Source of the DNA: Actinomycetota bacterium
GTDB lineage: Bacteria > Actinomycetota > Acidimicrobiia > Acidimicrobiales > JAJPHE01
Reading direction: 5' to 3'
Assembly: GCA_027315345.1 (NCBI GenBank)
Contig: DAHUYE010000091.1
Location: 1 to 64,000 of the forward strand
DNA: 64,000 bases
The notes under the pieces were generated by a model, which ran no database searches, was not told the origin of the DNA, and worked only from the letters and a program-made list of their open reading frames with translations. A program made the translations under genes and the position numbers. Below are positions 4,638 through 28,426 of this stretch, one piece after another. Each line of letters opens with the position of its first letter. Within the stretch, counting starts at the first letter, position 1.

Positions 4638-4759
4638 CAATGGCGACCCACCCAGGTCGTCGAGGGTGCCTTCTCGTATCATCAGGCTATGTTCCGGCTG
4701 GTCCCCTCTCGTTGCCCTGGCGCCGTCTTGACCTGCGCTCTGGCATGGAGGGCTGGGCG

Positions 4760-6405: not shown

Positions 6406-6407
6406 CA

Positions 6408-6941
6408 ATGAAGTTCTCGGAGGTCGCCCGCAGAGTTACCGGATTCTCCTGCCCGATATTCGGCGTGAGCTGGGACCCAGGAGTAGCGAAAGTCACGGCA
6501 GCTCGTCGGGTACTCGTCTACCTAGAGGACCGTCGGGTGCTCTTCGAACCGTTTGAAGCCGAATCTCCAGGGCACTGTGTCAGCTCGATTCTCGATATGC
6601 GTCAGTTCCTCACGACCGAGCTTGGACAGCTTGATGACAAGGAAGACGACATCGCACCCCATCTCCGGGCCATGCGGGCTTCGTGTCGGAAGTTCCTACG
6701 CAGCACGGACGTGCTGGATCGCGGTGCGGGCGGCTTCCGAGGCCCCTTCTACGGCTCTCACGAATGGGTCTTCAATCAGGCGCTTGGCGAGCTGCGGGGC
6801 ACCTTCGGAGTGCACATCGCCATGCTTTCGTCGAAGTTCGGCATCGACGTCGAGGATGACCTCGCGACCATCCTCCCAGAAGCTGACCTGGACTCCGGCG
6901 ACGATGCCGACTCGCCCATCCGACCTGGTCGGAAGCGCTGA
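6408..6941 (+). CDS. DUF6650-like hypothetical protein
   Basis: MKFSEVARRVTGFSCPIFGVSWDPG..ARRVLVYLEDRRVL. Confidence 0.5.
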   Translation: MKFSEVARRVTGFSCPIFGVSWDPGVAKVTAARRVLVYLEDRRVLFEPFEAESPGHCVSSILDMRQFLTTELGQLDDKEDDIAPHLRAMRASCRKFLRSTDVLDRGAGGFRGPFYGSHEWVFNQALGELRGTFGVHIAMLSSKFGIDVEDDLATILPEADLDSGDDADSPIRPGRKR

Positions 6942-7049
6942 CGAGCATCAGAAGCCGGACAGGCGACACAGCGTTCTCGTACCATCTCATCATGGCCACG
7001 ACCTACCTGACCTGGTTCTCGATCCTCGCCGACACTGGAGCTACGTCTC

Positions 7050-8663
7050 ATGGCGCCTAGGGGACGACCTCGGAAGGTAGCGAGCGGCAGCGCGGCCGAC
7101 GGCGGTGCGGCCCCCACGAACGGAACCTTCGATGTGAAGGCGCTTGAGACCTGGCTCTGGGACGCAGCCTGCCAAATCCGTGGGCCGCTCGACGCTCCGA
7201 AGTTCAAGGACTACATCCTCCCTCTCATCTTCCTCAAGCGGCTCTCCGATGTCTTCGACGACGAAGTCCAGCGGGTCGCTGACGAGGTCGGGGACCTGGA
7301 TACGGCGAAAGAGATCATCGACCAGGACCACGGACTGGTCCGCTTCTACCTTCCCGCCGAGAGCCGATGGCCGTCGATCGCGCTCAAGACCACGGGGCTG
7401 GGGGAAGCGCTGACGGATGCCGTGCGGGCTGTCGCTCGACAGAATCCACGGCTCCAGGGAGTCATCGACACCGTGGACTTCAACGCCACGGCAGCCGGAC
7501 AACCGATCGTCGATAACGACCGGCTCGCATCGCTGGTCAAGACCCTTGGCCAGCATCGCCTGGGCCTGAACGACGTACAGCCGGACCTCCTTGGTAGGGC
7601 CTACGAGTACCTCCTCAGAAAGTTCGCCGAAGGCCAGGGACAGAGTGCTGGCGAGTTCTACACGCCCGCCGAGGTTGCGCGGGTCATGGCACGCATCCTT
7701 GATCCCCAGCCCGGCATGACGGTGTACGACCCGTGCTGCGGCTCGTCGGGGTTGCTCATAAAGTGCCACCTCCGACTTCTGGAGACCCACGGCAACGCCG
7801 ACAACGAGCACCGGGAGCTGCCTCCTGAAGTCGCTCCCTTGAAGCTCTTTGGCCAGGAGATCAACCCGTCAACCTTCGCTCTGTCGAGGATGAACGCATT
7901 CCTCCATGACATGGACGCCGAAATCGCCCTCGGCGACACGATGCGCAACCCAGCCTTCACGGACCGCTCAGGTCACCTGCGGCAGTTCGACATCGTGACG
8001 GCGAATCCCATGTGGAACCAGGACTTTGCAGAGGACGTCTACCGGAACGACACCAGCGACAGGTTCGACCGTGGTATCCCACCGTCATCGTCTGCGGACT
8101 GGGGATGGGTGCAGCACATGGTGGCTTCCCTCAAGCCAACGGGACGAATGGCGATCGTCCTCGATACGGGAGCCGTGAGCCGAGGCAGCGGGAATGCTGG
8201 AGCGAATCGAGAACGGGACATCCGGCGAGCCTTCGTCGAGGCAGACCTCGTCGAGGCTGTACTCCTTCTCCCCGAGAACCTCTTCTACAACACGACGGCA
8301 CCAGGCATCGTCATGGTGCTCAACCGGAAGAAGCTGCACCCTGGTCAGATCGCGCTCATCAACGCCTCTCAGCTTTTCGCAAAGGGAAAGCCCAAGAATG
8401 AGCTGACCGAGGATCAGATTGCAGCCATTCATCAGCTCTTTGCCGACTGGCAGTCCGTGGACGAGCGTTGCGCCATCGTTACCACGCAGGACGTGGCGAC
8501 TAACGACTACAACCTGTCCCCAAGTCGCTATGTTGCTGGAGCTGCTGCCTCGGATGTCCTTCCTCTCGATGAGGCCGTCAAGCTTCTCCGGGAAGCGGAA
8601 ACGGAGCGCGCGGCGGCAGATGCCGAGTTGTGGAAGGTGCTAGCCGAGTTAGGGATAGAATGA
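7050..8663 (+). CDS. hsdM: Type I restriction-modification methyltransferase subunit
   Basis: LKRLSDVFDDEV; GEFYTPAEVARVM; YDPCCGSSGLL; TANPMWNQ. Confidence 0.95.
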   Translation: MAPRGRPRKVASGSAADGGAAPTNGTFDVKALETWLWDAACQIRGPLDAPKFKDYILPLIFLKRLSDVFDDEVQRVADEVGDLDTAKEIIDQDHGLVRFYLPAESRWPSIALKTTGLGEALTDAVRAVARQNPRLQGVIDTVDFNATAAGQPIVDNDRLASLVKTLGQHRLGLNDVQPDLLGRAYEYLLRKFAEGQGQSAGEFYTPAEVARVMARILDPQPGMTVYDPCCGSSGLLIKCHLRLLETHGNADNEHRELPPEVAPLKLFGQEINPSTFALSRMNAFLHDMDAEIALGDTMRNPAFTDRSGHLRQFDIVTANPMWNQDFAEDVYRNDTSDRFDRGIPPSSSADWGWVQHMVASLKPTGRMAIVLDTGAVSRGSGNAGANRERDIRRAFVEADLVEAVLLLPENLFYNTTAPGIVMVLNRKKLHPGQIALINASQLFAKGKPKNELTEDQIAAIHQLFADWQSVDERCAIVTTQDVATNDYNLSPSRYVAGAAASDVLPLDEAVKLLREAETERAAADAELWKVLAELGIE

Positions 8664-9778
8664 CAACCTCCTCCCCACCACGCTCCAGTGTTCGTTCCTG
8701 CCGATTGGGCGATATTGCTTCAGTCCGGTACGGGAAGGCAAGGCCAGCCAATTCCGGAGACGTGCCGGTGATCGGTTCCGGTGGTGTCTACGCGTATACC
8801 GACGAGCCGCTAGCCGATGAAAATGCGATAGTGGTGGGACGCAAGGGAACTGCTGGCCGGGTGATTTTTCCGCAGCGCCCGTCATGGCCATCGGACACTA
8901 CGTTCTTCGTCGAACCTGATACTTCTAGCATCTCTCCAGCATTTCTAGCGCTGTACTTGCAGCATGCCAATCTGGGCAGTGACTCGACCAAGACCACCAT
9001 GCCCAGTCTTCAGGCTCAGCAACTGACCGAGCTTCAAGTCAACCTTCCGGACCTGCAGGAGCAGCGGCGGATCGCACGGATTCTCTCGACGATCCAGGCA
9101 GCGTCGAACTCTGTTCGGGCGGTACTCGAACGCCAACACGGGTTCTCGAATGCCCTTGAGAACTACCTCTTTTCCCCTAGTACTTGCGGCGATTGGCCTA
9201 TGCAGCCCTTGGGCGAGGTTACGACTCAACGGCAGTACGGTCTGTCAGTTAGAGGTGCGCCCATCGGGGACCTGCCAATTCTCCGAATGACGAATCTGTT
9301 GCGCGGAGTGGTGAACTACGACAACCTCCAGTTCGTTGACTCGGACTCTGTTAACGTCAAACAGTATTTGCTGCGGCAAGGTGACATCTTATTCAATCGG
9401 ACCAACAGTCCCGAACTCGTGGGAAGAGTTGGAATCGTTGAACAGTCAACTCCAAGCGTGTTTGCTTCATACCTCATCCGCTTGATTTGTGATACCTCGG
9501 TAATCCGACCGGAGTTCCTGAATGCCTTTCTGAATTGGGAGCCCACGCAAGTGCGGCTCCGCGGAATGGCTACGCGGGGCGTTAGCCAAGCGAATATCAG
9601 CGCCTCGACTCTTGCAACCCTGAACACCCCCACTCCGCCACTTGACGTCCAACTTGACATTGTCCGTGCTTGGCGAGCTTCTCGTCGGGTGGTGGATGCG
9701 TCGTTCGCCGAAACGAGGGCATTGTCGGGGGTCTTTAGGACCGTACTGAGGCAGTTGGCTGGGGGCCTCGCGTCATGA
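8660..9778 (+). CDS. hsdS: Type I restriction specificity subunit
   Basis: Two target-recognition-like halves (LGDIASVRYGK.., LPDLQEQRRIARIL); ATGA overlap with hsdM. Confidence 0.9.
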   Translation: MTTSSPPRSSVRSCRLGDIASVRYGKARPANSGDVPVIGSGGVYAYTDEPLADENAIVVGRKGTAGRVIFPQRPSWPSDTTFFVEPDTSSISPAFLALYLQHANLGSDSTKTTMPSLQAQQLTELQVNLPDLQEQRRIARILSTIQAASNSVRAVLERQHGFSNALENYLFSPSTCGDWPMQPLGEVTTQRQYGLSVRGAPIGDLPILRMTNLLRGVVNYDNLQFVDSDSVNVKQYLLRQGDILFNRTNSPELVGRVGIVEQSTPSVFASYLIRLICDTSVIRPEFLNAFLNWEPTQVRLRGMATRGVSQANISASTLATLNTPTPPLDVQLDIVRAWRASRRVVDASFAETRALSGVFRTVLRQLAGGLAS

Positions 9779-12675
9779 CGACCGGCTCCGAGAGCGGCTC
9801 CGTCCAGTATCCCTTCATCCACTACGCACACGAAGCCGGATGGACCGTACTCTCCCGTGACGAGGCTCTTCAGCTCCGTGGCGGCGAGACCGGGGTCGTC
9901 TTCACGGACATCCTGGTGGATCAGCTCCGGAGACTCAACCCCGGCACGGTCAACCACGACCGCGCCGTTGATCTCGCTCATCGGGTAGTGAGAGCCCTTC
10001 CCAACATCAAGGGGAACGAGGATGTCTGGGAGTACCTGCGTGGCTTGAAGAAAGTCTTCGTCGAGGAGGAGAGCAGGGAGCGGGATGTCCGCTTCCTGGA
10101 CCTCGATGACCCGTCCAACAACGTCTTCCACGTTACGGACGAGTTCTCCTTCCGTCCCCGACCCGATGCGGAAGCGATCCGCTTTGACATCGCGCTCCTC
10201 ATCAACGGAATACCAGTGATCCTTGTCGAGACCAAATCCGCTACGAAGCGGGACGGTATGGCAGAGGCGCTGGTTCAGGTGCGCCGGTACCACGAGCAGG
10301 GACCGGAGGCGCTCGCTGTTCTGCAACTCTTCGCCATCACGCACCTTCATCGTTTCCTCTACGGAGCGACCTGGAACGCCAACAGAAAGTCGCTCTACAA
10401 CTGGCGGGACGAGGTAACCGGGAACTACGAGGACCTGGTCAAGGCGTTTGTAGCGCCAGAACGGGTGCTGCGCGTCGTCTCAGACTTCATCGTCTTCAGC
10501 AGCATCGACGGTGAGCTGAACAAGTTCGTCCTCCGGCCGCATCAGATGCGGGCAGCGGATCGAGTGGTCGAACGGGCGAAGGACCCCGCCAAGCGACGGG
10601 CGCTCGTCTGGCACACGCAGGGCTCTGGCAAGACGTACACGATGATCACGGCAGCGAAGCTCCTGATCGAGGACAAGGCGCTGGAGCATCCGACTGTGCT
10701 CGTGCTCGTGGACCGTACCGAGCTTGAGACGCAGTTGGCTGGGAATCTCGAAGCGCTTGGCTATGGGGATGTCCGGATCGCCCAGAGCAAGAAGGACCTC
10801 GAAGGGCTTCTCCGTTCGGACTGGCGAGGACTTATCGTCTCGATGATCCACAAGTTCGACGGGATGCCACCAGACCTGTGCTTGAGGGAAAACGTCTTCG
10901 TCCTCATCGACGAGGCACACCGCACGACCGGAGGTGCTCTCGGCACGTACCTGATGGCAGCGCTTCCAAACGCCACGTACGTCGGCTTCACCGGGACGCC
11001 CATCGACAAGACCGAACACGGCAAGGGGACGTTCAAGACCTTCGGCCCTGACGACGAGAGCGGCTTCCTCGACAAGTACTCGATCCGTGAATCCATCGAG
11101 GATGGTACGACGGTCCCGCTCAACTACGTCCTCGCTCCGAACGAGCTGCTCGTGGACCGGGAGACCCTGGAGGCGGAGTTCCTCCAGGTGGCGGAGCTGG
11201 AGGGCGTGTCGGACATCGAGACGCTCAACAAGGTGCTCGAACGGGCAGTCACGCTCCGGAACATGATGAAGAACCGGGAGCGGGTGGACGGCGTCGCGAA
11301 GTTCATTGCTGGGCACTACCGATCCAACGTCGAGCCGATGGGCTACAAGGCGTTCGTCGTCGGGGTCGATCGGGAGGCATGTGCTCTCTACAAGGACGCT
11401 CTCGACCGGTACCTGCCACCGGAGTACTCGGATGTCGTCATCAGTCACGGCCACAACGATCCTGCGGAACTGCGGCGCTTTCACTACGACGAGACCAAGG
11501 AGCTAGAGATACGGAAAGCATTCCGCAAGCCGGACGGCCTTCCGAAGATTTTCATCGTGACGGAGAAGCTCCTCACCGGGTTCGATGCCCCGATCCTGTA
11601 TGCGATGTACCTCGACAAGCCGATGCGGGACCACGTGCTGCTGCAATGCATCGCTCGGGTAAACCGGCCCTACGAGGATGCGGACGACAGGGCGAAGCCT
11701 GCCGGGTTCGTTCTGGACTTCGTGGGCATCTTCGAGAAGTTGGAGCAGGCGCTCGCCTTCGACTCGAAGGATGTCTCTGGCGTGGTGACGGGCATCCCGG
11801 ACCTGCAGAAGCGGTTCGCCGAGTTGATGGCTCAAGCCCGTGCCGAGTACCTCGGCATCGGCAACGGACTCCACGCCGACAAGGAAGTCGAGGCGATCGT
11901 CGAGTACTTCCGAGACGAGGAGCGTCGTACGGCTCTCCAGGAGTTCGTCTCCGAACTAGAGAACCTCTTCGAGATCATCTCCCCCGACGCCTTCCTCCGC
12001 CCCTACCTTGACGACTACGACGCCGTAATGCGCATCTCGGCCATCGTGAGGGAAGCGTTCTACCCGGGCATCGACGTGGATCGGTCGTTCCTTCGCAAGA
12101 CGGCGGAACTTGTCCAGGAGCACACCGCTACCTCCCCAATCCAAGGGATCAGCAAGGTCTACACGCTGAGCGAGGACTCGCTCGATCAGTTGACTCTTAT
12201 GGATGCGCCAGACACCGTGAAGGTCGTCAACCTCGTGAAGCTCCTCCACGATCTCGTGGCGAACGAACGAGACACGAAGCCCTTCCTGCTGTCCATCGGG
12301 GAAAAGGCGGAGGAGATTGCGGCAGCGTTCCGGGATCGGCAGATGTCAACCGAAGACGCTCTCGCGGCGCTGGCCCGGCTGGCAACGGAAGCAATACAAG
12401 CGGAGAAGGAGCAAGAGGCAACTGGCCTCAAGCCAGAAGCCTTCGCCGTGCTCTGGTACCTGAAGGGGAAGGGTGTCGAGGAAGCCAAGGCTCAGATCGT
12501 TGCTGGAGCCGCCGCCGCAGTCTTCGACGAGTGTCCACAGTGGCGCCTACGGACCGACCAGGAACGGCAGGTGCGCATCAAGCTCCACGCCGCATTGATC
12601 AAAGCGGGTGAGAAGGACGGATCGAGCGACTACGTGGAGGACATCATCGAGTCACTGCGCAGGGTGCAACCATGA
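9775..12675 (+). CDS. hsdR: Type I restriction endonuclease subunit
   Basis: 966 aa; WHTQGSGKTYTM, LIDEAHRT, FTGTPI helicase motifs. Confidence 0.95.
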   Translation: MTTGSESGSVQYPFIHYAHEAGWTVLSRDEALQLRGGETGVVFTDILVDQLRRLNPGTVNHDRAVDLAHRVVRALPNIKGNEDVWEYLRGLKKVFVEEESRERDVRFLDLDDPSNNVFHVTDEFSFRPRPDAEAIRFDIALLINGIPVILVETKSATKRDGMAEALVQVRRYHEQGPEALAVLQLFAITHLHRFLYGATWNANRKSLYNWRDEVTGNYEDLVKAFVAPERVLRVVSDFIVFSSIDGELNKFVLRPHQMRAADRVVERAKDPAKRRALVWHTQGSGKTYTMITAAKLLIEDKALEHPTVLVLVDRTELETQLAGNLEALGYGDVRIAQSKKDLEGLLRSDWRGLIVSMIHKFDGMPPDLCLRENVFVLIDEAHRTTGGALGTYLMAALPNATYVGFTGTPIDKTEHGKGTFKTFGPDDESGFLDKYSIRESIEDGTTVPLNYVLAPNELLVDRETLEAEFLQVAELEGVSDIETLNKVLERAVTLRNMMKNRERVDGVAKFIAGHYRSNVEPMGYKAFVVGVDREACALYKDALDRYLPPEYSDVVISHGHNDPAELRRFHYDETKELEIRKAFRKPDGLPKIFIVTEKLLTGFDAPILYAMYLDKPMRDHVLLQCIARVNRPYEDADDRAKPAGFVLDFVGIFEKLEQALAFDSKDVSGVVTGIPDLQKRFAELMAQARAEYLGIGNGLHADKEVEAIVEYFRDEERRTALQEFVSELENLFEIISPDAFLRPYLDDYDAVMRISAIVREAFYPGIDVDRSFLRKTAELVQEHTATSPIQGISKVYTLSEDSLDQLTLMDAPDTVKVVNLVKLLHDLVANERDTKPFLLSIGEKAEEIAAAFRDRQMSTEDALAALARLATEAIQAEKEQEATGLKPEAFAVLWYLKGKGVEEAKAQIVAGAAAAVFDECPQWRLRTDQERQVRIKLHAALIKAGEKDGSSDYVEDIIESLRRVQP

Positions 12676-12995
12676 GGCGAGACGCACGCCAACACTCGTT
12701 CGCACCTGCGGCTCCGCTGAGCACGCCGCTCTCCGCTGAGGAACTGAGAAGCGAGGTGCGTTCTTGGTCGGAGCGGCTCGAAGTCGCTCCGAGGGAAGTG
12801 CGCGTCGCCGAGATGACCCGCAAGTGGGCGAGCTGCTCCACCCGTGGGCGAGTCACCTTTGCCTTGGACCTTCTGGCCCAACCCGAGGAGGTGCGCCGCG
12901 AGGTGATCGTCCACGAGCTACTGCATCTCAAGGTTCCGAACCATGGGCCACTATTCAAGGCATTGCTCGCTGCGCACCTGAGTGGCGAGTCCTGA
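12672..12995 (+). CDS. YgjP/WLM-type M48-like metallopeptidase
   Basis: VREVIVHELLHLKVPNHGPLFKALL; overlaps the hsdR stop. Confidence 0.8.
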   Translation: MRRDARQHSFAPAAPLSTPLSAEELRSEVRSWSERLEVAPREVRVAEMTRKWASCSTRGRVTFALDLLAQPEEVRREVIVHELLHLKVPNHGPLFKALLAAHLSGES

Positions 12996-13072
12996 TCATG
13001 CCCACGCCATGGCCTGGCGCCTGCTGGTGCCGTAGAGCCACACAGACCTAGCCACCTGCGACAATCAACTAC

Positions 13073-14059
13073 ATGGCACAGGTCCATAAGCAGCACATCA
13101 CCCTGGGAGGCGGTCGATTAGTAGGGACCGTCTCCGTGGATGGCGGAGCAGTTCGAGGCGAAGGTGGCCCCATCCGACCGCAGCTCGTCATCCCGCTCAC
13201 TCTCGACATGAATCCTCAGCCGGACGAGGCGATGCTTGCCGTGGTCTGGCTCCATGCACGGCTCGGCTTCGACCAGCATGCGTCGCCACAGCAGATTGCG
13301 TGCCAGCCCATCTCCCATCCGCTCGTGGACGGCTTTCACGCTCACTCGCTTCCCCATGGAGCAGCGGACTACACGGCGCACCTTCGCTTTTTCCTGACGC
13401 CGGCTGAGGTAGAGGACTTGGAGCGCCGACGTCATGCAGGAACTCCCGACGTCTTCCAGCTCTACCTCGGCCTCGACCCCATCATCGCGGGAATGAAGAC
13501 CTATAACAGTTTCGGTCCGGGACGGGCTCCCGAGCAGACGCCGTGGGACATCCAGTTCGGGATGTTCTCGCAGGTGCTCCCTTTCTGGACGGTCCGCATC
13601 GAGCCCGTGTGGGTACAGATCGAGCAGTCCACGTGGGTACGGAACGTCCTTCCGGGTCTTGGCTACGACAGGCTTCGGCTCCTGGAGATGACGTTCCCGC
13701 CTCCGCTCCCGGACCACACGAGCGCTGCGTCACAGTTTGACAAGGCGAAGCGTGCGCTCGACGAGCGTCGGTACGGCGACTGCATCCAAGAGTGCCGCGG
13801 TCTCCTGAACATGTGGGAGAAACAGCACAGCGCCACCGGGAAGCAGCGCATCGCCGAGATTGTCGCTACGGACCGGGGATGGGCTCAGGACGACATCCGC
13901 CGTCAGCTCCTCGACGTCCTCTGGAGGGAGATCGGCGATGTGGCAAACGCTCCGCACCATCCCGAGGGCGACGTAAGTGCGGAGCTGTTCGATAGTCGCG
14001 ATGCTCGTCTCCTTCTTATCCTCACGGCAGCACTTTCAGAATACGTTGGCGGATTTTGA
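13073..14059 (+). CDS. Hypothetical protein, partner of the TIR protein
   Basis: 328 aa, no recognised domain; TGATG junction with the downstream TIR gene. Confidence 0.7.
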   Translation: MAQVHKQHITLGGGRLVGTVSVDGGAVRGEGGPIRPQLVIPLTLDMNPQPDEAMLAVVWLHARLGFDQHASPQQIACQPISHPLVDGFHAHSLPHGAADYTAHLRFFLTPAEVEDLERRRHAGTPDVFQLYLGLDPIIAGMKTYNSFGPGRAPEQTPWDIQFGMFSQVLPFWTVRIEPVWVQIEQSTWVRNVLPGLGYDRLRLLEMTFPPPLPDHTSAASQFDKAKRALDERRYGDCIQECRGLLNMWEKQHSATGKQRIAEIVATDRGWAQDDIRRQLLDVLWREIGDVANAPHHPEGDVSAELFDSRDARLLLILTAALSEYVGGF

Positions 14060-15003
14060 TGGCCGCAGCAGTCCTTACTCCAGCGAAACGTGCAGACCTT
14101 CTCCTCCGTCTGCTTGCACGCCTCTTCGAAATGGATTGGAACGACATCGACGTAATTCTTACTTCTTTTGGACTAGATGGGCTCGACCTCGATGGCAATC
14201 CGGACTACGCGACTGCTCACAGTCAATGTCGCTCTTCTTTGCAGGCCGCTGACGCTAATACCCTGCAACAGCTCGCAGCATATGTCTTGGGCTCTGATTG
14301 GGACCTAAGAGACTCCGAGGTCCCTGGGAGCGGAAGTGCGGATGACCTATGGGGGGACGGCATCGCAAGGGTATTCCTGTCACACCTCGCGACGGAGAAA
14401 GCATTCGTGGCAGAGATCAGTGAGCACTTAGCTGGCATCCAAGTATGTTCTTTTGTTGCGCACGACACGATCGATGTATCCCGAGAATGGCAAGCTGACA
14501 TAGAACGAGCACTCGGGTCCGCGGATGTTCTCGTAGGTCTTGCACATCCAGGGTTCCATAACAGCTACTGGACCCAACAGGAGGTCGGCTGGGCTCTAGG
14601 ACGTAACCTGCCCGTCTTGATGATTGGACTCGGGGAGACTCCTCAGGGCTTTCCAGCTCGATATCAGTCGCCGATGCTGAGTGGACCTTCGGCTTGGAAG
14701 GTCGCCTCTACGATTGCGGTGTGGTTAACTCGCGATGAGCGTTGGCGAGACGAGGTGGTAGGAGCGCTGGTACACGACCTTCAAGACGCCAGAAGCTTCG
14801 TTGCAGGAGAGGCTGCTGCTAAGCGTCTGTCTGAAGTTGGCAAGCTCACGCCCGCTGTACTAGATGCGATTGAACAAGCCTATTTATCGAATGACCAACT
14901 CTATCCCAACCATATAGGGGCACGAGTAGTCGAACAGATTCTTCAGAATCACAACCGCAAGCTCCCACGAGATCAGCAATTTATTGGCCCGAAGCGTAGG
15001 TAG
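14059..15003 (+). CDS. TIR-domain protein
   Basis: RVFLSHLATEKAFVAEISEHLAG..CSFVAHDTIDVSREWQADIERALGSADVLVGLAHPGFHNSYWTQQEVGWALGR. Confidence 0.85.
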   Translation: MAAAVLTPAKRADLLLRLLARLFEMDWNDIDVILTSFGLDGLDLDGNPDYATAHSQCRSSLQAADANTLQQLAAYVLGSDWDLRDSEVPGSGSADDLWGDGIARVFLSHLATEKAFVAEISEHLAGIQVCSFVAHDTIDVSREWQADIERALGSADVLVGLAHPGFHNSYWTQQEVGWALGRNLPVLMIGLGETPQGFPARYQSPMLSGPSAWKVASTIAVWLTRDERWRDEVVGALVHDLQDARSFVAGEAAAKRLSEVGKLTPAVLDAIEQAYLSNDQLYPNHIGARVVEQILQNHNRKLPRDQQFIGPKRR

Positions 15004-15019: not shown

Positions 15020-15274
15020 TCACGACTCGGCGCAGAGGAAGTCGCCGTCGTCGGCGTAGTGGTGGCCGTCGGGGTGAATCAGTTCGGCATCAACTGAGCA
15101 CCCGCAGCGGTCGCAGAAGACCCAGGTCACCTCACGGTAGAGGGGCCGAGGCGCCAGTAGCTCGAGCTGCTGCACGAGCTGAACGAGGTTGGCGTGGGCG
15201 GCATCGTCGTCCCGGGCGGATGCAACGAGGTGGCACTCCACCAGCTCTGCAATGTCGGTGATCGTGTAGACCAT
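15020..15274 (-). CDS. Small hypothetical protein
   Basis: 84 aa; VFCDRCGCSVDAELIHPDGHHYADDGDFLC, Cys-rich zinc-ribbon-like. Confidence 0.5.
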   Translation of the reverse strand: MVYTITDIAELVECHLVASARDDDAAHANLVQLVQQLELLAPRPLYREVTWVFCDRCGCSVDAELIHPDGHHYADDGDFLCAES

Positions 15275-15516
15275 GTCTGCAACTCCTTTCCCTTCTCGGT
15301 TCATGGGCGCGAACGGGTACGGAGGGAAGCACGGGGTCAAGGGAAGAGGACGGAGTCCTCCGGGAGAACCGGAGCGAAGCGGCGGCTCGGACCGCCTTGA
15401 CGCTGTGCGGCTCCGTGCAACCCTGTGCGACCGAACCCGAGAAAGAACCGTTGCGGATCGGGCTTGCGATCCCCGAGAGGGCTGGGCGAGAGCCCCCTCG
15501 GGGACGAGCCCCGGCG

Positions 15517-15903
15517 CTACGCCGCCGGTGCCTCCGAAGCGCTCTTCCCGGAGAGTGCCTGGAGCCTGTTGGCGACGATCTCGACGGTCCGTCGAGTGCT
15601 GCCGTCGGTGGCCTGCCACTGGCGGCTCTGGAGCCGACCCTCGATGTAGACGAGGCGCCCCTTGCCGAGGTACTGGCAGGCGAAGTCGGCGAGCTGGTCC
15701 CAGAGGACCACGTAGTGGAACTCGGCGTGGCTCTTGCCGTTCGTGGCGACCCGGACGGTCGTGACGTGCTTGCCGGATGCGGTCTCCCGCAGCTCCGGGG
15801 CGGCGACGAGGCGCCCGATGAGGGTCACCTGGTTCACCGAGTCTCCCCGGCTCTGGACAGAAGCTGTCTGCTTCTTCGTGCTGTTGGTCTTGTTGCTGCG
15901 CAT
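15517..15903 (-). CDS. ssb: Single-stranded DNA-binding protein
   Basis: NQVTLIGRLVAAPELRETASGKHVTTVRVATN..YLGKGRLVYIEGRLQSRQW. Confidence 0.9.
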   Translation of the reverse strand: MRSNKTNSTKKQTASVQSRGDSVNQVTLIGRLVAAPELRETASGKHVTTVRVATNGKSHAEFHYVVLWDQLADFACQYLGKGRLVYIEGRLQSRQWQATDGSTRRTVEIVANRLQALSGKSASEAPAA

Positions 15904-15955
15904 TGCTGCACCTCCTGTGATGTGGATCGATGCCACGGTGATGAGCGGGCCGACT

Positions 15956-16047
15956 GCCGAGCGGAACAGGTCACGCCGGAACGGCGTCTCGCTCTTGGGC
16001 CTTGCAGCGGACAGGCAGCGGCCTGCTACCGGGGACGCTCGCGTCCC
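15956..16047 (-). promoter_or_regulatory. Structured ssb leader with conserved motifs
   Basis: Hairpins ACGCCG-gaa-CGGCGT (15973-15987), CAGGC-agcg-GCCTG (16012-16025), GGGACGC-tc-GCGTCCC (16032-16047); CTTGCAGC at 16001. Confidence 0.5.
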
Positions 16048-16145
16048 GTATGGCGTTCGAAGACGATCCACATGACGTCAAGGAGGGGCTTGCGCAGCGA
16101 TGACCATCCGAAGCAGGGCGGAACCGGGGCCGGGGTGCTGGTGGC

Positions 16146-17180
16146 CTACGTCAGGGTGATGTAGCCAACGTCCCTCAGCGTTGCGGTGAAGTGGTCCGCA
16201 TACGGCCCGTCAGCAAGTTCGGGTCGCTCGGCGCAGAGCCGAGTCCACTCAGCGGGGCCGCTCTCGCCGACGAGATACAGGTACAGAGCAGTCGCCCATG
16301 CGGCGACCGTCGGGGCATCGGTGGCTGCAGCGAGAGCCGTTCGGCGGGCAAGTCTCCGGCAGTCGGGGTCCTCGAAGAGGAGCATGTAGATGCACTGGCC
16401 GATTGACCCACGCTCGAAGGCGGTTTCGGGATCGACCATCTCCAGGAGCTGCCATACCTCGGGCACGGTCCAGCGCATCGACGCGCAGACGACCTGCTGG
16501 ATGGGGCCTGGAAGCATGTTCTGCTTCGTCCAGGCGACGTCAGGGTGTGGAGTGCAGAACGCAAGAGCGACAAGCCCAGCAAGCCGCCCACGCTCGCCGA
16601 GCGCCAGGAAGGATCGCCGCACGGCGATGAGCGCATCGGCGTTGCGACGTGCGATGGCAAAGCAGTCCCATGCGGCTGCTTCCTGCTCGTCGTCGTTGGC
16701 GCTGCCAAGGGCAAGCGGAAGCCCCGGCCGAGTGGTCGTCCGTACCGACTCCATAAGGAGCTGGAGCTGGTGGTCATCATCGAGGCGTGCGTCCTCGGGG
16801 ACGTGGATGGACACGAGCTGTCGGTCCTCGCGGAGTGCTGCCGTGAGGTTGGCCCATCGGAGCCTGCCGTCTCTCGGGTCGTGAACGACCCCGATGACGG
16901 GGACCGGAGAGTTCATCCATACTTCCCGATGCTTGCCGACCGGGATGCGGTACCCGTCAGTGGCACTCCATGACTCTCCACCCTTGACCTGGACCGAGAA
17001 CAGCTCGCCCGTGAGGGTCCCGTCGTCGTCCGTGATATCGACGTAGCCGTCCTTGCCGAAGTCGTTGCTGGCATCGACCGGCTGGAAGACCCACGACCGA
17101 GCGGTGCACCAAGTCGTGAAGATGTTGACGGCCTGCTTGCTCGTGACCCACGTGTCCAGCACCCTCACGGGGCCAGTCAA
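16146..17180 (-). CDS. DUF4365-like protein (PD-(D/E)xK-like)
   Basis: NDFGKDGYVDITDDDG..LFSVQVKGG nuclease-like motif. Confidence 0.65.
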   Translation of the reverse strand: MTGPVRVLDTWVTSKQAVNIFTTWCTARSWVFQPVDASNDFGKDGYVDITDDDGTLTGELFSVQVKGGESWSATDGYRIPVGKHREVWMNSPVPVIGVVHDPRDGRLRWANLTAALREDRQLVSIHVPEDARLDDDHQLQLLMESVRTTTRPGLPLALGSANDDEQEAAAWDCFAIARRNADALIAVRRSFLALGERGRLAGLVALAFCTPHPDVAWTKQNMLPGPIQQVVCASMRWTVPEVWQLLEMVDPETAFERGSIGQCIYMLLFEDPDCRRLARRTALAAATDAPTVAAWATALYLYLVGESGPAEWTRLCAERPELADGPYADHFTATLRDVGYITLT

Positions 17181-17207
17181 GCACCGTGAGGGTTAGGAGG
17201 AGACGGC

Positions 17208-18023
17208 TCACGCCGCCTCCTCCTGTGCTGCGGGCTCGAAGGCCCGGAGGATGGTCGCTGCGGTGCGCTGGATGCGCTCGCAGGATGCCTTGATCCCGGC
17301 AATCGCCTGGTCGCCGCCACCCGCCCAGGTTGCGACGTAGCCGAAGGAGTAGTCGCTGCTGTCGATCCCGAGCGCCTGGCAGACGACGTACGCAGTGGAT
17401 TCGGCCTCCAGCTCGGCAAGCGCCCGGCTGTCGAAGCTCTCGTGGAGCAGGGCGTGTGCGATCTCGTGGGCGAGCGTCTTCACCCGCTGGGCGGGGGTGT
17501 TCCGGGTCTCGACCCGGATGCGGTGCTCGCTGTGCGTGCAGTCGCCGTTCGTGGTCCCGTTGAACTCGTGGTCCTCGACCGTGAAGCCGATGGAGTCGGC
17601 CACCGTGAGGAGCGTGGCGTAGTGCCCGGCAGGGTCGTCGCCGTCGAGGCGGTTGCAGATGGCGGGAAGGTCTTCGCCGTCGGTCTGGGCGACGTCGAAC
17701 ACCGGGACGAAGTTGAAGCCCCGGATGATGCGCTCGTCCTCGCCATCTTCGGCATCGGCGTTCTTGTAGACCATGGGGGCGAGAATCCAGATGGCCTTCT
17801 CTCCCTTGCGGACGAAGCGGTTCATCTTCCGCCAGGCGTTGAAGCCTGCCACCTGACTCGCCTCGTGGCACTGGGCAGCGATGAGGAGCACATTGTTGAA
17901 GCTGTAGCGGTGGAACTTGGACTGGAAGTCGAGGTGGCGCTGCCACTCCTCGGACGTCGTGAGGTTGCTGATCCCCTCTGCCAGCTTCTCGATGAGTTCC
18001 GGGTGGTTGTTCTTGGCGGTCAT
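17208..18023 (-). CDS. ArdC-like antirestriction protein
   Basis: N-terminal FHRYSFNNVLLIAAQ..FNAWRKMNRFVRKGEKAIWI plus TLAHEIAHALLHE metallopeptidase. Confidence 0.85.
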   Translation of the reverse strand: MTAKNNHPELIEKLAEGISNLTTSEEWQRHLDFQSKFHRYSFNNVLLIAAQCHEASQVAGFNAWRKMNRFVRKGEKAIWILAPMVYKNADAEDGEDERIIRGFNFVPVFDVAQTDGEDLPAICNRLDGDDPAGHYATLLTVADSIGFTVEDHEFNGTTNGDCTHSEHRIRVETRNTPAQRVKTLAHEIAHALLHESFDSRALAELEAESTAYVVCQALGIDSSDYSFGYVATWAGGGDQAIAGIKASCERIQRTAATILRAFEPAAQEEAA

Positions 18024-18537
18024 TGCTGAGTCCCTCCATGTGGTGCTGATCTGATGCACCCGACACGGCAGGGCAAGGCCGAGCGGAATAGCCCCGAGCG
18101 CAGCGAGTGCACTTCAGGGCTTGCAGCTCGTAGGACGCAGCTCTGCCAGGGTGAAGCAGCAGAGAGGCCCGCATGGGGCGGGCGAAGGACCGCACCAGCA
18201 CACCCGGACATCCCGAGGCTGGCGGTCGAGAGGGGATCACGAACGATCCGAGCTGGCAGGAGACGCTACCGGGGACCAGTGACAGCCATCGCTCCATCAC
18301 CCGTGCTCCCGCTGCCTCCACGGGGCGACCGGCAGGCAGCCCGGCGGGACCGCTACGTCAACGAGTAGGCCATCATGGATCCCACGCCACGGTTACCCGA
18401 TGCCGAGATTCGATCGGGGCGCATAACGGGGCTTCGACGTAGCCTGTCCGCTCGCCCGCACGACGGGGTCCTCCCACCTCAGCCGCCATGGCAGTACCCT
18501 GGAGCGAACACCAGTTCGCTTCCGTGGAGGAACTGAT

Positions 18538-18801
18538 ATGAGCTTCGAGTTCAACGAAGACGCGATCCGAGACCTCGCCAACCGAGCCGTCACGATTCGA
18601 GCGCAGGAGATGCAGGCGCTCCTCGACGAGGTGCGCACGACGGAGCAGGGCAAGGACGTGGATGACGTCAAGGCAGTCCTGGCCGCTCGTTGGCGGGAGA
18701 CGTTCGAGCGCGACCTCACCGATCCCCACCTGAGCGCCTGGGCCGAGCAGTTGGCCAAGGGTGGTCAGGTCATCGTCAAGCCGGAGCTGGAGGGCGCCTG
18801 A
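18538..18801 (+). CDS. Small hypothetical protein
   Basis: 87-aa ORF following ggaggaactgat. Confidence 0.5.
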   Translation: MSFEFNEDAIRDLANRAVTIRAQEMQALLDEVRTTEQGKDVDDVKAVLAARWRETFERDLTDPHLSAWAEQLAKGGQVIVKPELEGA

Positions 18802-18823
18802 CGAGCGGGAAACTCTTTCGCTG

Positions 18824-19534
18824 TTACTTGGTCGCCGGAACGGTCCACTTGACTACGGAGTTCTTCTGCAAGAAGGCGGAGCCTGCAAACTGCACATAGG
18901 TAGGCGTAGCTGCATTCGGTACCTCAAAGACAACCCAACCTCGCACACACTGATTCGGCGCCAATGACGTGATGTTGTAGCCAAATTGAGTTAGCGAGGA
19001 GAGTTGTGGCGTGGTCAGAGGGCCACTCACGATGGGCGAACTCGATGCCGTGGAGCCATTCGATAGCAGGACCGAGAAGTCGGTTGGATCAACGCCGAGA
19101 CTTGTGCCGTTGTGACCCGCGCAGGCGGTGACGTCAATGGCATCCCACGTTGTTCCGCTCGACGGCGACTCGTACTGATTTGACGACGACACGTTCGTGT
19201 ACCAACCGTTCACCTGCACTGAGTCGATCCCTCCAATGGTCTCGGGGATCGCAACCTTTGTGCCCATCGGGTGCGGTTTAGAGGAGACGGTGACGGTCGC
19301 AGTTGTGCTGAGATTTGCGGCACTGCGGCCGACGATCAGGACAACGATAAGCGCGACAATGGCGACCAGGCCACACCCGCTTCCACAAGCGACAAGCGTC
19401 TTTTGAAAGCCGGACATCCCACTTTTCGGCGCTGGCCCTTGGGGAACCTGCGGCGCATATTGCATGGGGGGCTGTTGGGGATATTGCGATGGATTTGGCG
19501 GTGTTGACGACATAGTTACAACATTGTCCGACAA
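18824..19534 (-). CDS. Membrane-anchored secreted protein (DUF4352-like)
   Basis: Pro-rich N-terminus, one TM (LVAIVALIVVLIVG), extracellular beta-rich domain. Confidence 0.6.
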   Translation of the reverse strand: MSDNVVTMSSTPPNPSQYPQQPPMQYAPQVPQGPAPKSGMSGFQKTLVACGSGCGLVAIVALIVVLIVGRSAANLSTTATVTVSSKPHPMGTKVAIPETIGGIDSVQVNGWYTNVSSSNQYESPSSGTTWDAIDVTACAGHNGTSLGVDPTDFSVLLSNGSTASSSPIVSGPLTTPQLSSLTQFGYNITSLAPNQCVRGWVVFEVPNAATPTYVQFAGSAFLQKNSVVKWTVPATK

Positions 19535-19809
19535 TTAATAGCCCATGTGCAATGGGACCGGTCGCCGGGCTGCCTGCCACTCTATGTAAGCAGCCGCATC
19601 CTTCTCATAAACGGTGGTCCAGCGAGAATGATCTTCAGCGGGCGGAGCCCATATCGCCGACCTCGGCCGACGTTCTCACAACCCGATTTCGTATCATTGT
19701 CTCGATACCTCCGGTTCTCCATGGGCCAGTGAGAACCGGTCATCGGGGGATCGGATGTGTTGATCGGCTGCCTCCGCTGGGGGCTGGCGAGGGGACGCTA
19801 CGCCGAGCT

Positions 19810-20649
19810 TCAGTGTTCGGCGTGCCGTTCCGAATAGTCGTCAAGACCACGGCGGAGCACCTGCGAGATGACGTCCATGCTGTCTGAAATCAGCTCGTCC
19901 GTGAGAAGCGTCTGGCCCGTCCAGTTCTCCGGATCGGTCCGGGAGAACGACATGACGCGGATCATCGACTTGTCGTGGGCGGAGCCCCGGTCGTGGAAGT
20001 GGTGCCACGACTCTCCGGCCATCGTTCCGCCGATCGGATGCCCGGCAACGATGTTGCGCGCGACCTTGACAGCCTTGCCTCCATCCATGGCGTCTGCTCG
20101 GACCCGCGCGCCAAGACACCGAGCGACGGCTTCGGCACCATCGAAGCCGACCTGCATCGCCTGCAGTAGGCCGTACTTCGCGAGGTACGCCTCATCCACG
20201 TGATCGAACGGTGGCAGCGCGCTGTATCCCTCGATCGCATTCACGGCGTCCTCGACCACCATGAGGGCAGCCATCAGTTCGTTCGGGTGGCTGTCCAACT
20301 CTCCGACGTGCTCGACACTGCTCCGTACCTGGTTGCACAGGCGCAGGACGTCACGAGCCTCCGGCGAGCGGAGATGCTGCCGTGCGATGGAGTAGAGCCC
20401 GCGCAGCAGGACTCCAAGAGGAGCATCTGCCCACGGATGATCCGGTCCAGTTGCCTCCGGAGCGGTGTCGATGAACGCCTGGAGGAAGCGACGAAGCTCC
20501 GCATCATCCGGGGCGTTCTCCACGCTCTGGATCGAGTCTCGGAGCCGGTCCGGCGGAGTGCCGCCGTTCGCGTCGTCCGTCCAGTGATCGAGGCAGGCAT
20601 GAGCCAGAGCCCGCGCCCGATCGTCCAGCTCGTCGGGATTCCACACCAT
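19810..20649 (-). CDS. Hypothetical protein
   Basis: 280-codon ORF starting MVWNPDELDDRARALAHACLDHW. Confidence 0.6.
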   Translation of the reverse strand: MVWNPDELDDRARALAHACLDHWTDDANGGTPPDRLRDSIQSVENAPDDAELRRFLQAFIDTAPEATGPDHPWADAPLGVLLRGLYSIARQHLRSPEARDVLRLCNQVRSSVEHVGELDSHPNELMAALMVVEDAVNAIEGYSALPPFDHVDEAYLAKYGLLQAMQVGFDGAEAVARCLGARVRADAMDGGKAVKVARNIVAGHPIGGTMAGESWHHFHDRGSAHDKSMIRVMSFSRTDPENWTGQTLLTDELISDSMDVISQVLRRGLDDYSERHAEH

Positions 20650-20705
20650 CGAGCTATCTTGCCTGCAACCGATCCCGCCCGACGCTGGCGAGGGGGTCGC
20701 TGGGG

Positions 20706-21131
20706 CTACCAGCGACCGTTCTCCTGTGCGCAGTATCGGCACTCCAGCGGGAAGTTCGCTCCCGCCCAGTCGGCGAGCATCCGACGGCTCTGGCCTTCCG
20801 GCGCGTACCACGCCTGGTGCCAGGCCTGGTACTGGAATTCGGCCCACTTCACTTCACCGTTGACGTCCACCTCGACGAGGACTCGGGCAGCAGGTCCGCC
20901 GCTGGTGATGAGGATTTCCCACTCGCAGTTGCCCCGGAACGAGTGCGTGAGCTGTTCAACCGAGAGGACGCTCTCGGCTTCCTCCTCCCGTAGCTCGTCA
21001 ACGGCGTCGTAGTCGCCTTCCTCCTCGGCCTTGAGGATCGTCTCGTAGCGCTTCGCCCGGTCGGACTCTGGACCGAAACATGCTTCGTAGTAGTGCTGTG
21101 CATCCTGGTGGAACTCTGCTGTGCCCTTCAT
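20706..21131 (-). CDS. Hypothetical acidic protein
   Basis: MKGTAEFHQDAQHYYEACFGPESDRAKRYETILKAEEEGDYDAVDELREEE. Confidence 0.6.
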   Translation of the reverse strand: MKGTAEFHQDAQHYYEACFGPESDRAKRYETILKAEEEGDYDAVDELREEEAESVLSVEQLTHSFRGNCEWEILITSGGPAARVLVEVDVNGEVKWAEFQYQAWHQAWYAPEGQSRRMLADWAGANFPLECRYCAQENGRW

Positions 21132-21713
21132 GTCGTTCTCCTTGTGTGAAGGCTGGTAATGGCCTTCAGGAGGCGACGTCGAGGCACGCTGCAAGGGCGA
21201 GGCGCAGTCCTCGTTCATCTCGACCCTTGCAGCGGAGAAGCCAATGACGGCGCGAAGGTCCATTGGAGCGCACCAGCCCACAAGGGACGACTTGGGCCAT
21301 GCAGACCACCACGCACAGCCCTACGAGGCAGGCGAAGGTCCGCCGAATCGGCGCTACCCCGATCCGGTCCCGGGGGTGACGCAGCCAGAGACGACGGGCG
21401 AAAAGCCAACCGTGTCCCTCACGCCCTCGTTCCGACGCGACAAGTCCTCAGCACCACCAGGGGTGCTGATCCTCGGCGGGAACGTCACGGTGTGGGCCGA
21501 TTCCATACCAGGCAGACCAGCCTGCCCGGAAGCTGGATGCTCACCGAAGGGGCAGTTCCCATGGAGTGCTGGCGCAGAAGCAACCCGAACCCCGGTGAGT
21601 GTCGCCAAGGGTGCTACGAAAGGATTTCCTTTCGTACCGCCAGGGTCACCGCGTCCTCCGAAGTCGTCCGAGACCCCGAACGGGGCCACGCTTTTCGTAT
21701 CTGGCCTTCAGCC

Positions 21714-25494: not shown

Positions 25495-26013
25495 CTACGA
25501 AGTCTGTTCCAGCGTGAGAGAAGACGATGCAGTGAGAGTCATCCCAGAGGGATCGATGGTCTTGAACAGCGGAGTGATCGGGTCATACACGATTGCTGCC
25601 GACACCTGTACGACGGTCACTCCCTGGACGAGACAGTTCCCCTCGGTAAAACCCGGCTGCGCAACGAAGCTGTCCGTACCCGTGGAATAGGTGCCACACT
25701 CGACAACGCCGCTTGGCTCGGGCAGGAAATACGCAATCGCAATCTGGCTGCTCGCTATCGTGTCCAGAAGGGCGTTCTCCTGCACTGCTCCCTGAATCGT
25801 ACCCGCAGACGCTGGATTGGTCGGATCATACGCGAGGGGTGACACTGCTGCGAACCGGGCACCAACCCGTACTGCACCGTTGAGAGAGAGACTCGATGCC
25901 TCGCCCAGCCCCAAATCCAGGAAGCCGAACAGGATCAGAAGCAGGAACGGAGAGACAACGGCGAACTCCACAAGCGCCTGCGCATGCTGCCGTCCCTGTG
26001 TCCGGTATCTCAT
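25495..26013 (-). CDS. TadE-like pilus assembly protein
   Basis: AQALVEFAVVSPFLLLILFGFLDLG. Confidence 0.8.
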   Translation of the reverse strand: MRYRTQGRQHAQALVEFAVVSPFLLLILFGFLDLGLGEASSLSLNGAVRVGARFAAVSPLAYDPTNPASAGTIQGAVQENALLDTIASSQIAIAYFLPEPSGVVECGTYSTGTDSFVAQPGFTEGNCLVQGVTVVQVSAAIVYDPITPLFKTIDPSGMTLTASSSLTLEQTS

Positions 26014-26561
26014 TCGACGACCATCCAGATGTTCTGCGACAGTGACGTGCTGAAACTTGCAACAGGAATCACAGGCACGAAACTCGCTGTGAGCGTGACC
26101 TGCACAAGGTTGCCACCTGATATGCAGCTTGCTTCAGGCTGAGGTCCTGTAGCAACGAATGTCCCGGATGCAGCGCTGTAATACCCGCATTCCGTCGTCG
26201 TCCCGGTGAGCGGAGAGAAGTCATAATAGGCGATGGTGATATTGCTATCGGTATTGGGAACAGTAATCCCATCTCCTGCACTCTCAATCTGGCCCTCGAT
26301 CGTTGGCGCTGGCGGTGTGGCAGCCGCACTCCACTGCTCCGGATACAAGGAGGCATACCGGGCTCCCTGGCGAGCCATGTTCGTTACCTGCGCGATGCGG
26401 GCACCATATGACGCAATGTTGATAAAGCCTACGAACAACCCAAAGAACAGCGGGGCTATGAGGGCAAACTCAACAACCGCCTGCCCAATACTGGCTCTTT
26501 GAGCCCTTGGACCCGCTCGCAGAATATTCGTGGCGATAGTTGGTCCCCGTGTTGTGCACAT
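26010..26561 (-). CDS. TadE-like pilus assembly protein
   Basis: IGQAVVEFALIAPLFFGLFVGFINI; overlaps the next gene by 4 nt. Confidence 0.8.
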   Translation of the reverse strand: MCTTRGPTIATNILRAGPRAQRASIGQAVVEFALIAPLFFGLFVGFINIASYGARIAQVTNMARQGARYASLYPEQWSAAATPPAPTIEGQIESAGDGITVPNTDSNITIAYYDFSPLTGTTTECGYYSAASGTFVATGPQPEASCISGGNLVQVTLTASFVPVIPVASFSTSLSQNIWMVVE

Positions 26562-26743
26562 GCTGTTCTCGCATCAAATACTGCAAGCCAGAGCAGGACG
26601 TTGCAGTCACCGTCGATGGGGTCATTGTATCTGGCTGTACGGTGTGTGAGGGATACGCGTACACGATGTTGCGAATAGTTGATGGATTGTTACCGGGTCG
26701 CTGCCGGTATAGGCGCACCACCGCATATTCTTGAATCACAAAA

Positions 26744-28426
26744 ATGAAAGGAATACCTCTTATACTCCCGTTTGCTCGTCGCTGGGTGCCTGGCGCCGTG
26801 ATGCACCGACTTCGACGACCATCAACGCCCCCTCACTCACGACGGCGGTCGCAGCGAGGCCAGACGCTCATCGTTGCAGTTCTCATGGTGACCGTTGTGG
26901 TGACCATTGCTGGAGGAGTCATTGATCTGACCGCGGCGCAACTGCACCATGCGCAGGATCAGGCGGCTGCTGATGCCGCATCCCTCACTGCAGCGAGCGA
27001 AGTCGAGCTTGCACTGCGAAGCTTCGATACGCCGGTTCAGGCACTGGCCCAGGCAAATGATGCAGGAACGCATATTGCAGCGTCAGATGGCTGTGGTGCG
27101 AGCTGCACGGTGACCTTCCAGTACGAGGAGGCAAACGGCTCGGTCGCTCCGACAGTCGCTGATGCCACGGAAGTCACTGCAACCCTCGTCGATGGATCAT
27201 CGCCACTCGCATTCGGGAGCATCCCTGGACTCGGTCCGATTGCTCTCACGCTTTACGCAACAGCCCTGATCCCCACCGGATCAAGCGAGCTAGCCCTCGG
27301 GTGTACCGTGTGCACGCTTGGCTCCTCCGGAACGGGCGGGAACCTGACATTCACTCCCGGCGTCACCATCCCCCCGATCTGTGTGCTGCTCGTGTGTGCA
27401 CCCACGATAACTGCGTCGCTGGAGCAGACCCTCAACGTGACAGGAACGATCCAGGCGAATGGCGACACCGGAGTCATCGCGCCAGCAGGACTGAATCTCA
27501 ACGTCGGGGACGGTGTGATGTCCAGCGGGTTTACCGCTACTGGCACAGCCTCGTACCCAGCAGGATGGACTGTCAACCCTGCAGTCGTCACGGGCGCAGC
27601 AGTGGCACCCGATCCACTGCAGAACTCCCTTCCTCCCTCGGATGCTGGCCTGTCCGTTCAGGGCACGAACGGGGTCGTGACACTGCCTTCCACGGGCGGG
27701 ACCCTGAGCCCCGGGTTCTACAGCGAGATTTGCGGCTCGGGCCTCAACAGTGCAACCGTCACGTTCCAGCCAGGTACGTACTTCATCATTGGAAGCGGCG
27801 CCGCATCATCGACGTCAAGCTGCTCGTCGTTCGGATCTGGGCTGTATCTCAATGATGCCAGCGGTTCCGGGACGAGCACCGTTACCGGTACTGGCGTGAC
27901 GTTCTTCTTTGGATGCGGCTCGATCCTGAGCGGTGTCGCCATGCCAACCGCCTGTACTCCTGGTGAAGTGGGACCGAATGTCACACTCACCGGAAGCATC
28001 GACCCCTCGCTCAACGCTCCGACCTCCGGGACGGGACAGAACCTCTTGTTCTACTTCGACCGGAACGATACAGGGACGTTGTCAATATCGCTCCTGCCGT
28101 TCACCATCACGGGATCGCCCGGCTTCTACGGCTCGATCTACGGAAGGTCGATGACAGCCGCGATCTCGACCGGGCTCGCGACCGTGAACACGACTGCCAT
28201 CATGGATCTCATCTCGTGCATCACAAGCGCGATAACAAGCCTGAATCTCACGGCGGCATATCTGACGTCGTGCCTCGGCTCGCTCTCCGGGCTCATGAAC
28301 CTGTCGATCGGGAGCCTCATCGTTAAGTCCGCAACGTTCTCGGGAACGCTCGTGCAGTACAACCTCTACGACTCGACTCCAGTGGATGCTGGACTCGGTC
28401 AGTCGTTCCTAACGGTGAATCCGTAG
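26744..28426 (+). CDS. TadG-like pilus-assembly / secreted protein
   Basis: RRGQTLIVAVLMVTVVVTIAGGVIDLTAAQLHHAQDQAAADAASLTAA, long beta-rich extracellular region. Confidence 0.75.
   Translation: MKGIPLILPFARRWVPGAVMHRLRRPSTPPHSRRRSQRGQTLIVAVLMVTVVVTIAGGVIDLTAAQLHHAQDQAAADAASLTAASEVELALRSFDTPVQALAQANDAGTHIAASDGCGASCTVTFQYEEANGSVAPTVADATEVTATLVDGSSPLAFGSIPGLGPIALTLYATALIPTGSSELALGCTVCTLGSSGTGGNLTFTPGVTIPPICVLLVCAPTITASLEQTLNVTGTIQANGDTGVIAPAGLNLNVGDGVMSSGFTATGTASYPAGWTVNPAVVTGAAVAPDPLQNSLPPSDAGLSVQGTNGVVTLPSTGGTLSPGFYSEICGSGLNSATVTFQPGTYFIIGSGAASSTSSCSSFGSGLYLNDASGSGTSTVTGTGVTFFFGCGSILSGVAMPTACTPGEVGPNVTLTGSIDPSLNAPTSGTGQNLLFYFDRNDTGTLSISLLPFTITGSPGFYGSIYGRSMTAAISTGLATVNTTAIMDLISCITSAITSLNLTAAYLTSCLGSLSGLMNLSIGSLIVKSATFSGTLVQYNLYDSTPVDAGLGQSFLTVNP

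Follow-up and report, generated by a model that had tools for sequence, protein, structure and literature searches.

A covarying hairpin leader upstream of ardC, ssb and radC genes on mobilizable elements of Acidimicrobiales is a candidate single-stranded-DNA promoter

We investigated the leaders of an antirestriction gene, ardC, and a single-stranded-DNA-binding protein gene, ssb, on an integrated mobilizable element of an Actinomycetota bacterium (order Acidimicrobiales). The DNA analysed is a stretch of 64,000 nucleotides (positions 1 to 64,000 of contig DAHUYE010000091.1, assembly GCA_027315345.1; hereafter the window), which is part of a 72-kb contig in a 3.84-Mb assembly. As judged from comparative sequence data, the leaders of ardC, ssb and, in other genomes, radC are one structured, covarying family on mobilizable elements. 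We tentatively read this leader as a single-stranded-DNA promoter, formed by the template strand, that would act as an on-switch for element entry; among the explanations considered it is the one we favour, at a little under even confidence.

Results and discussion

The ardC and ssb leaders share one covarying hairpin

The initial annotation had noted that GCTGCAAG recurs on the minus strand at nearly the same distance upstream of three start codons, namely those of ssb (16001-16008), ardC (18120-18127), and a third gene (21226-21233), and all of these positions proved correct. The first base of the octamer lies 105 (ssb), 104 (ardC), and 102 nt (third gene) upstream of the ATG. The octamer occurs seven times in the window versus 2.0 times expected (0/100 shuffles), and none of 20,000 random triples of element segments had an 8-mer in common at matching offsets. 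The second motif, CTrTTCCGCTCGGC, is indeed common to the ssb (15956-15969) and ardC (18078-18091) leaders, which hold its sole exact copies, not just within the window but across the entire assembly; any 13-mer was common to 70 of 20,000 random segment pairs. A lack of motif conservation in related elements had been named as the observation that would refute the initial reading; it was not borne out, since many other genomes keep both motifs ahead of ssb and ardC. In the predicted fold, the two are not separate motifs, but two sides of one internal loop in one hairpin: GCTGCAAG covers the 5' side and the bases flanking it, CTrTTCCGCTCGGC makes up the 3' side, and this arrangement accounts for their fixed distances.

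This hairpin is imperfect, spans ~95 nt, and ends 52-58 nt before the start codon. It comprises an outer stem (P00), a stem P0, an internal loop with TGCA facing RTTCC, a further stem (P1), and a hairpin at the tip (P2). Two covariance models were built, R1 including the third-gene leader of the window and R2 covering the core only, without that leader. In the covariation-supported ardC hairpin (18058-18152, minus strand; closed by ACCC/GGGT), P00 pairs 18140-18147 with 18067-18074, P0 (CGAGC/GCTCG) pairs 18126-18130 with 18080-18084, and P1 (AGCCC/GGGCT) pairs 18116-18121 with 18090-18095, while the internal loop places TGCA (18122-18125) against ATTCC (18085-18089) and P2 is variable; R2 matches 18080-18130 with 69 bits. 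The ssb hairpin (15944-16027, minus strand) has AGCAGGCCG/CGGCCCGCT as P00, TGCA/GTTCC as the loop, and ACGCCG-TTC-CGGCGT as the tip, with an R2 match of 55 bits at 15958-16011.

The whole conserved ardC leader is ~290 nt long (18024-18310, minus strand) and is found by nhmmer at 14 loci besides the window (E 1e-53 to 1e-83), that is, in 14 of the 22 loci fetched by the ArdC protein; its part upstream of the hairpin is kept in closer relatives only. For the ssb leader, conservation extends to seven loci. Pairwise alignment of the ssb and ardC leaders of the window gave a score of 236, against a null maximum of 180, and a profile of the ardC leader matches the ssb leader of locus L012 (E 2e-14); by these scores, the ssb and ardC leaders are homologous.

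The stems change on both sides. Across 21 distinct sequences, P0 and P1 showed 19 double-sided changes versus 7.4 in shuffled alignments, with a covariation score of 0.229 versus 0.102 (0/500). Among 19 ardC-type hairpins, 82.7% of the cells in P00, P0, and P1 are paired (75.5% when shuffled; 31-52% when the arms are slid out of register), with 36 double-sided changes versus 14.8 (0/500); these shuffles preserve column make-up and not relatedness, and the counts are thus not probabilities. Variants of P00 include GGCAG/CTGCC, GCCAG/CTGGC, and ACCAG/CTGGT, and those of P0 include CGAGC/GCTCG, CGGGC/GCCCG, GGGGC/GCCCC, CTGGC/GCCAG, and GGCGC/GCGCC. The tip stem is swapped wholesale with its complementarity kept: ACGCCG/CGGCGT is replaced by AGACCC/GGGTCT and AAGCCG/CGGCTT in the ssb leaders of relatives, and CGGAGC/GCTCCG and AGGAC/GTCCT also occur.

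Distribution of the leader

Of 398 genomes of the order, 14 hold R2 copies (E up to 3e-6); these genomes belong to eight family-level groups, and further copies came from two family searches and from searches of metagenome-assembled genomes (MAGs). R2 genome matches with E >1e-5 lay inside coding sequence or in unrelated contexts and were discarded. A search of 398 genomes across the phylum with R1 detected no host from any other order. The relatives are Acidimicrobiaceae and other MAGs, several of them with peat or bog sample names. Where the open reading frame (ORF) after the leader was readable, it encoded ArdC, SSB, a RadC-family protein (L058, L061, and L063), or a 65-aa product (L036); some leader copies are followed by broken genes. 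ardC, ssb, and radC are the class of genes needed for establishment after single-strand transfer. L058, L061, and L063 are three near-identical RadC genes with the hairpin leader in one MAG, and at L068 radC is closely preceded by an ArdC-like gene.

A template-strand hairpin as a candidate entry switch

We propose the following sequence of events. In the duplex DNA of the donor, the hairpin would be absent, and ardC, ssb, and radC would be quiet. Upon entry of the element in single-stranded form, the template strand would fold into the hairpin, whose GNA-type tip would resist coating by SSB; RNA polymerase would then start on the folded strand, providing ArdC, SSB, and RadC before second-strand synthesis, and conversion to duplex would switch the promoter off. 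The transferred strand would have to be the template of ardC and ssb, a polarity that would follow if the origin of transfer (oriT) lies beside mobC and the relaxase gene is the last to enter, as it usually is (PMC11541004). The position of the leader before the same gene class in eight family-level groups, with fixed spacing to the ATG, supports such a switch.

Two features of the hairpin lean toward folding of the template DNA strand, corrected folding energy being neutral. Of 16 distinct 3-nt tip loops, eight are TNC when read in the mRNA sense and so correspond to GNA on the template strand, against a background of 6% (p 1.7e-6, the loops not being phylogenetically independent). GNA loops with at least two G-C pairs form extraordinarily stable DNA mini-hairpins (PMC4686876), and in the early promoters of phage N4 the template-strand hairpin resists SSB, whereas the hairpin of the opposite strand is melted (PMC4496689). 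The second feature is wobble pairing: sense G.U cells occur at 0.32 of the shuffled expectation versus 0.74 for sense A.C cells (G.T on the template), and the leader tree holds 17 A.C versus 6 G.U origins. A strand call by raw folding energy favoured the template strand, and was rejected because this preference was gone after dinucleotide-shuffle correction. As to the single-strand folding that the initial annotation had suggested as a check, the ssb and ardC hairpin is supported by covariation, and corrected energies do not separate the two strands.

Several observations weigh against a promoter on the template strand. The leaders contain no sigma-70-like sites in a scan that covers actinobacterial promoters poorly, and no -35 or -10 is visible in the stems, unlike in the Frpo candidates of Samuel et al. 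The raw excess of A.C over G.U falls within the expectation from column composition (748/5000 shuffles) and is therefore largely compositional, which leaves only the relative G.U depletion as a hint. Composition-corrected minimum-free-energy z-scores show no template preference (27/48 with RNA and 26/48 with DNA parameters), and the upstream helix of the ardC leader, examined by eye, seems to carry G.U changes. Further, the EGeRS1 leaders of pLS20 look alike, yet their authors argue against a single-stranded-DNA promoter, since the transferred strand of pLS20 is the non-template strand (PMC8708921). The single-stranded-DNA promoters analogous to Frpo that had initially been suggested thus retain the conserved covarying hairpins, the GNA loops, and the G.U depletion in their favour, but neither a -35/-10 nor a match to F. 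That the leaders constitute an undescribed Actinomycetota class of such promoters, with a template hairpin, a GNA-type SSB-resistant tip, and an internal loop replacing the -35/-10, keeping ardC, ssb, and radC on only while single-stranded, is a more doubtful extension of the proposal.

The main rival, for which we see a real though lesser likelihood, is a cis-acting RNA leader, in which the hairpin in the 5' untranslated mRNA would control read-through or translation, as an attenuator or a protein-binding site, in the manner of EGeRS1. The hairpin lies directly before the ribosome-binding site (RBS) with fixed spacing, combines a conserved internal loop with covarying stems as regulatory RNAs do, and has a precedent in EGeRS1, which precedes the same gene, ardC (PMC8708921). 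Moreover, GGGTGC in the ardC leader is able to pair with either an upstream CACCC or an RBS-adjacent GCACC, a possible switch. The sense G.U pairs, however, which an RNA would tolerate, are depleted threefold; the tips are not UUCG or GNRA, but the 3-nt TNC loops that read GNA on the other strand; and the leaders contain no terminator-like site. Nor is there an Rfam family match at the gathering threshold, with no match to the STAXI or radC motifs even at E<=5.

A regulon of double-stranded operators or promoters, whose inverted repeats would bind an element-encoded repressor and mediate zygotic induction (the EGeRS2/Reg type of p576), is improbable. While it would account for common sequence blocks with fixed spacing upstream of several operons, on an element that encodes helix-turn-helix (HTH) and resolvase proteins, the tip and outer stems change sequence and keep complementarity, which a sequence-reading repressor would not allow, and the poorly suited promoter scan detected no sigma-70-like promoter. 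A role of the leaders in priming the complementary strand, as ssi or other DNA-processing sites ahead of genes that are mere passengers, is less probable still: Frpo itself is reported also to prime replication (Masai and Arai 1997), and the third-gene leader and a fourth leader (described below) form hairpins that are stable as single-stranded DNA, but the strict placement 52-58 nt before the starts of one gene class, in several copies per element, argues against it.

Relation to known systems

Like Frpo/ssi of F and related plasmids (Masai and Arai 1997; Samuel et al. 2024), the leaders are imperfect hairpins that occur in several copies, with genes on one strand, and they precede ssb and anti-restriction genes of transferred elements; the grouping of several same-strand copies within an island recalls Frpo islands (PMC11541004). 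Frpo is a single-stranded-DNA hairpin built like a duplex promoter, with -35 and -10 elements, from which host RNA polymerase transcribes with stimulation by SSB, whereas in the present leaders no -35 or -10 is visible; they are also more GC-rich and belong to actinobacterial hosts. The leading region of F gave no sequence match, the best R2 score being 10.8 bits (E 0.22, chance level).

EGeRS1 of pLS20 precedes ardC, blocks read-through from upstream promoters, and lacks a promoter (PMC8708921). Like EGeRS1 (Val-Calvo et al. 2021), the present leaders are structured over several hundred nucleotides, high in GC, and without a recognisable promoter; they directly adjoin the RBS of ardC and of further establishment operons, and a single element carries multiple copies before such operons (ardC, ssb, and an 84-aa gene). 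A difference is that the conserved core here is a compact, ~95-nt covarying hairpin. Sequence identity above 60% to pLS20 EGeRS1, which would mark a member of that family, found no support: in pLS20 1-12000 and 46000-65774 (31.8 kb), the best R2 score was 8.9 bits, which is at chance in an indirect test by hairpin model rather than by direct alignment. The leader would work like Frpo or EGeRS1, membership in either not being demonstrated.

The STAXI and radC RNA motifs (Weinberg et al. 2010) are likewise structured and near ssb, antirestriction genes, or radC, and whether STAXI acts as RNA or single-stranded DNA is open; STAXI forms a tandem pseudoknot in which UUCG loops are frequent, neither feature being seen in our leaders. 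The promoters of the phage N4 virion RNA polymerase are short template-strand DNA hairpins with a 3-nt loop that survive SSB. The present hairpin is longer and has an internal loop, the resemblance being one of loop type only, and no N4-type RNA polymerase was found among the element proteins scanned. Our literature search, which left most subscription journals and preprints outside, found no paper on such leaders in Actinomycetota.

These leaders bear on how recipients outside Gammaproteobacteria turn on establishment genes, which is largely open, the mechanism of EGeRS1 being unknown. They form a compact family of hairpins, rich in natural variants and in covariation and defined well enough for pair-by-pair mutation, and through their strand signature the choice between DNA and RNA can be tested directly. 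The complete single-contig genome G014 (2,158,157 bp) offers an entry point for such work, and the model could also serve to search elements of uncultured actinobacteria for genes of establishment and anti-defence.

The third and fourth leaders

The third gene (20706-21131, minus strand) is a 141-aa ORFan, for which neither plasmids nor 23 related genomes yielded a homolog. The 11-bp inverted repeat reported upstream of it is present at 21187-21234 (arms 21187-21197 and 21224-21234, minus strand; DNA fold z ~-3 on either strand). R2, built without this leader, scores it at 7.0 bits (E=3.8, chance level), and its alignment with the ssb leader is not above the null (p=0.24), that with the ardC leader being marginally above (230 versus a null maximum of 225). 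Hence, of the likeness initially drawn among three leaders, that of ssb and ardC holds as one family, whereas for the third gene only the octamer and the palindrome stand, and family membership is unsupported.

A fourth structured leader, absent from the initial annotation, precedes the 84-aa gene (15275-15440, minus strand) and is kept in L011, L013, L024, and L014. Its stem pairs GTCAAGG (15395-15401) with CCTTGAC (15336-15342), its tip is GAGGAC-TCC-GTCCTC (15346-15360), and its DNA fold z is -2.97 on the plus strand. The conserved 84-aa ORF itself (15020-15274, minus strand, ATG at 15274) has no NCBIfam match, and homologs with the same kind of leader occur in L013, L011, and L024.

The host element and its surroundings

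The 3' end of a tRNA-Met(CAT) gene contains an attachment (att) repeat (1657-1754). This repeat is 87% identical over 98 nt to a second one (38986-39083) that adjoins a tyrosine integrase (37767-39233); these 98-nt repeats, in the 3' half of the tRNA-Met(CAT) gene and beside the integrase, place ardC, ssb, and the third gene on a 37.3-kb integrated element. The ssb copy of the leader in G014 likewise adjoins a tRNA-Met gene. The element backbone is transcribed leftwards and encodes, in order, the integrase, an excisionase-like protein, Fic, ParA, RepA, Replic_Relax, a TraD-like ATPase, Tad-type proteins, a resolvase, the third gene, ArdC, a DUF4365 protein, SSB, and the 84-aa protein; the genome of L067 has the same order parA-repA-Replic_Relax-ATPase-resolvase-ardC-ssb, with some identities taken from ORF position. 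The Replic_Relax protein (PF13814; 32531-33304, minus strand) is assigned to the MobC relaxase class by its profile match and by the listing of PF13814 among MobC relaxases by Coluzzi et al. 2017 (PMC5357655). The TraD/VirD4-like coupling ATPase (30771-32546, minus strand) matches TIGR03743 with E 4e-17, under that profile's curated cutoff. The element thus has the integrase, tRNA att repeats, PF13814 relaxase, and coupling ATPase of an integrative mobilizable element, and the relaxase and coupling protein together imply single-strand transfer. No mating-pore operon was found among the element proteins in a non-exhaustive scan. The repA-mobC gap (33304-34198) contains repA-type ACGCATAAACGCCGAGG iterons and a CAAGG...CCTTG block kept in L029 and L067, and is a candidate oriV/oriT; no nic site could be named there in an oriT search.

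Among the genes behind the leaders, ssb (15517-15903, minus strand) encodes 128 aa (PF00436, E 4e-29), and the ardC-like gene (17208-18023, minus strand) encodes 271 aa with ArdC N-terminal (PF08401, E 8e-11) and zinc metallopeptidase (PF06114) domains. Directly downstream of ardC, and probably in one operon with it, lies the gene of the DUF4365 protein (16146-17171, minus strand), which has weak similarity to a defence nuclease profile. A distant second ArdC-like protein (36% identity) is encoded just beyond the window (G000:C48:64023-64853, L010). Beside its antirestriction gene, the element carries a type I restriction-modification set with a TIR-domain protein (7050-15003, plus strand).

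Two TadE-like proteins and one Tad-like protein are encoded at 25495-28426 of the mobilizable element. A 176-nt segment (19602-19777) is 95% identical to L021 and 88% identical to L026, where it lies near resolvase-like genes, and is perhaps a resolvase site or a junction. Finally, a second integrase (45199-46521) lies within 39320-46938 together with an HTH_17 excisionase-like protein, two large proteins without family matches, and a 668-aa protein with several HTH-like segments, which suggests a neighbouring second element or its remnant.

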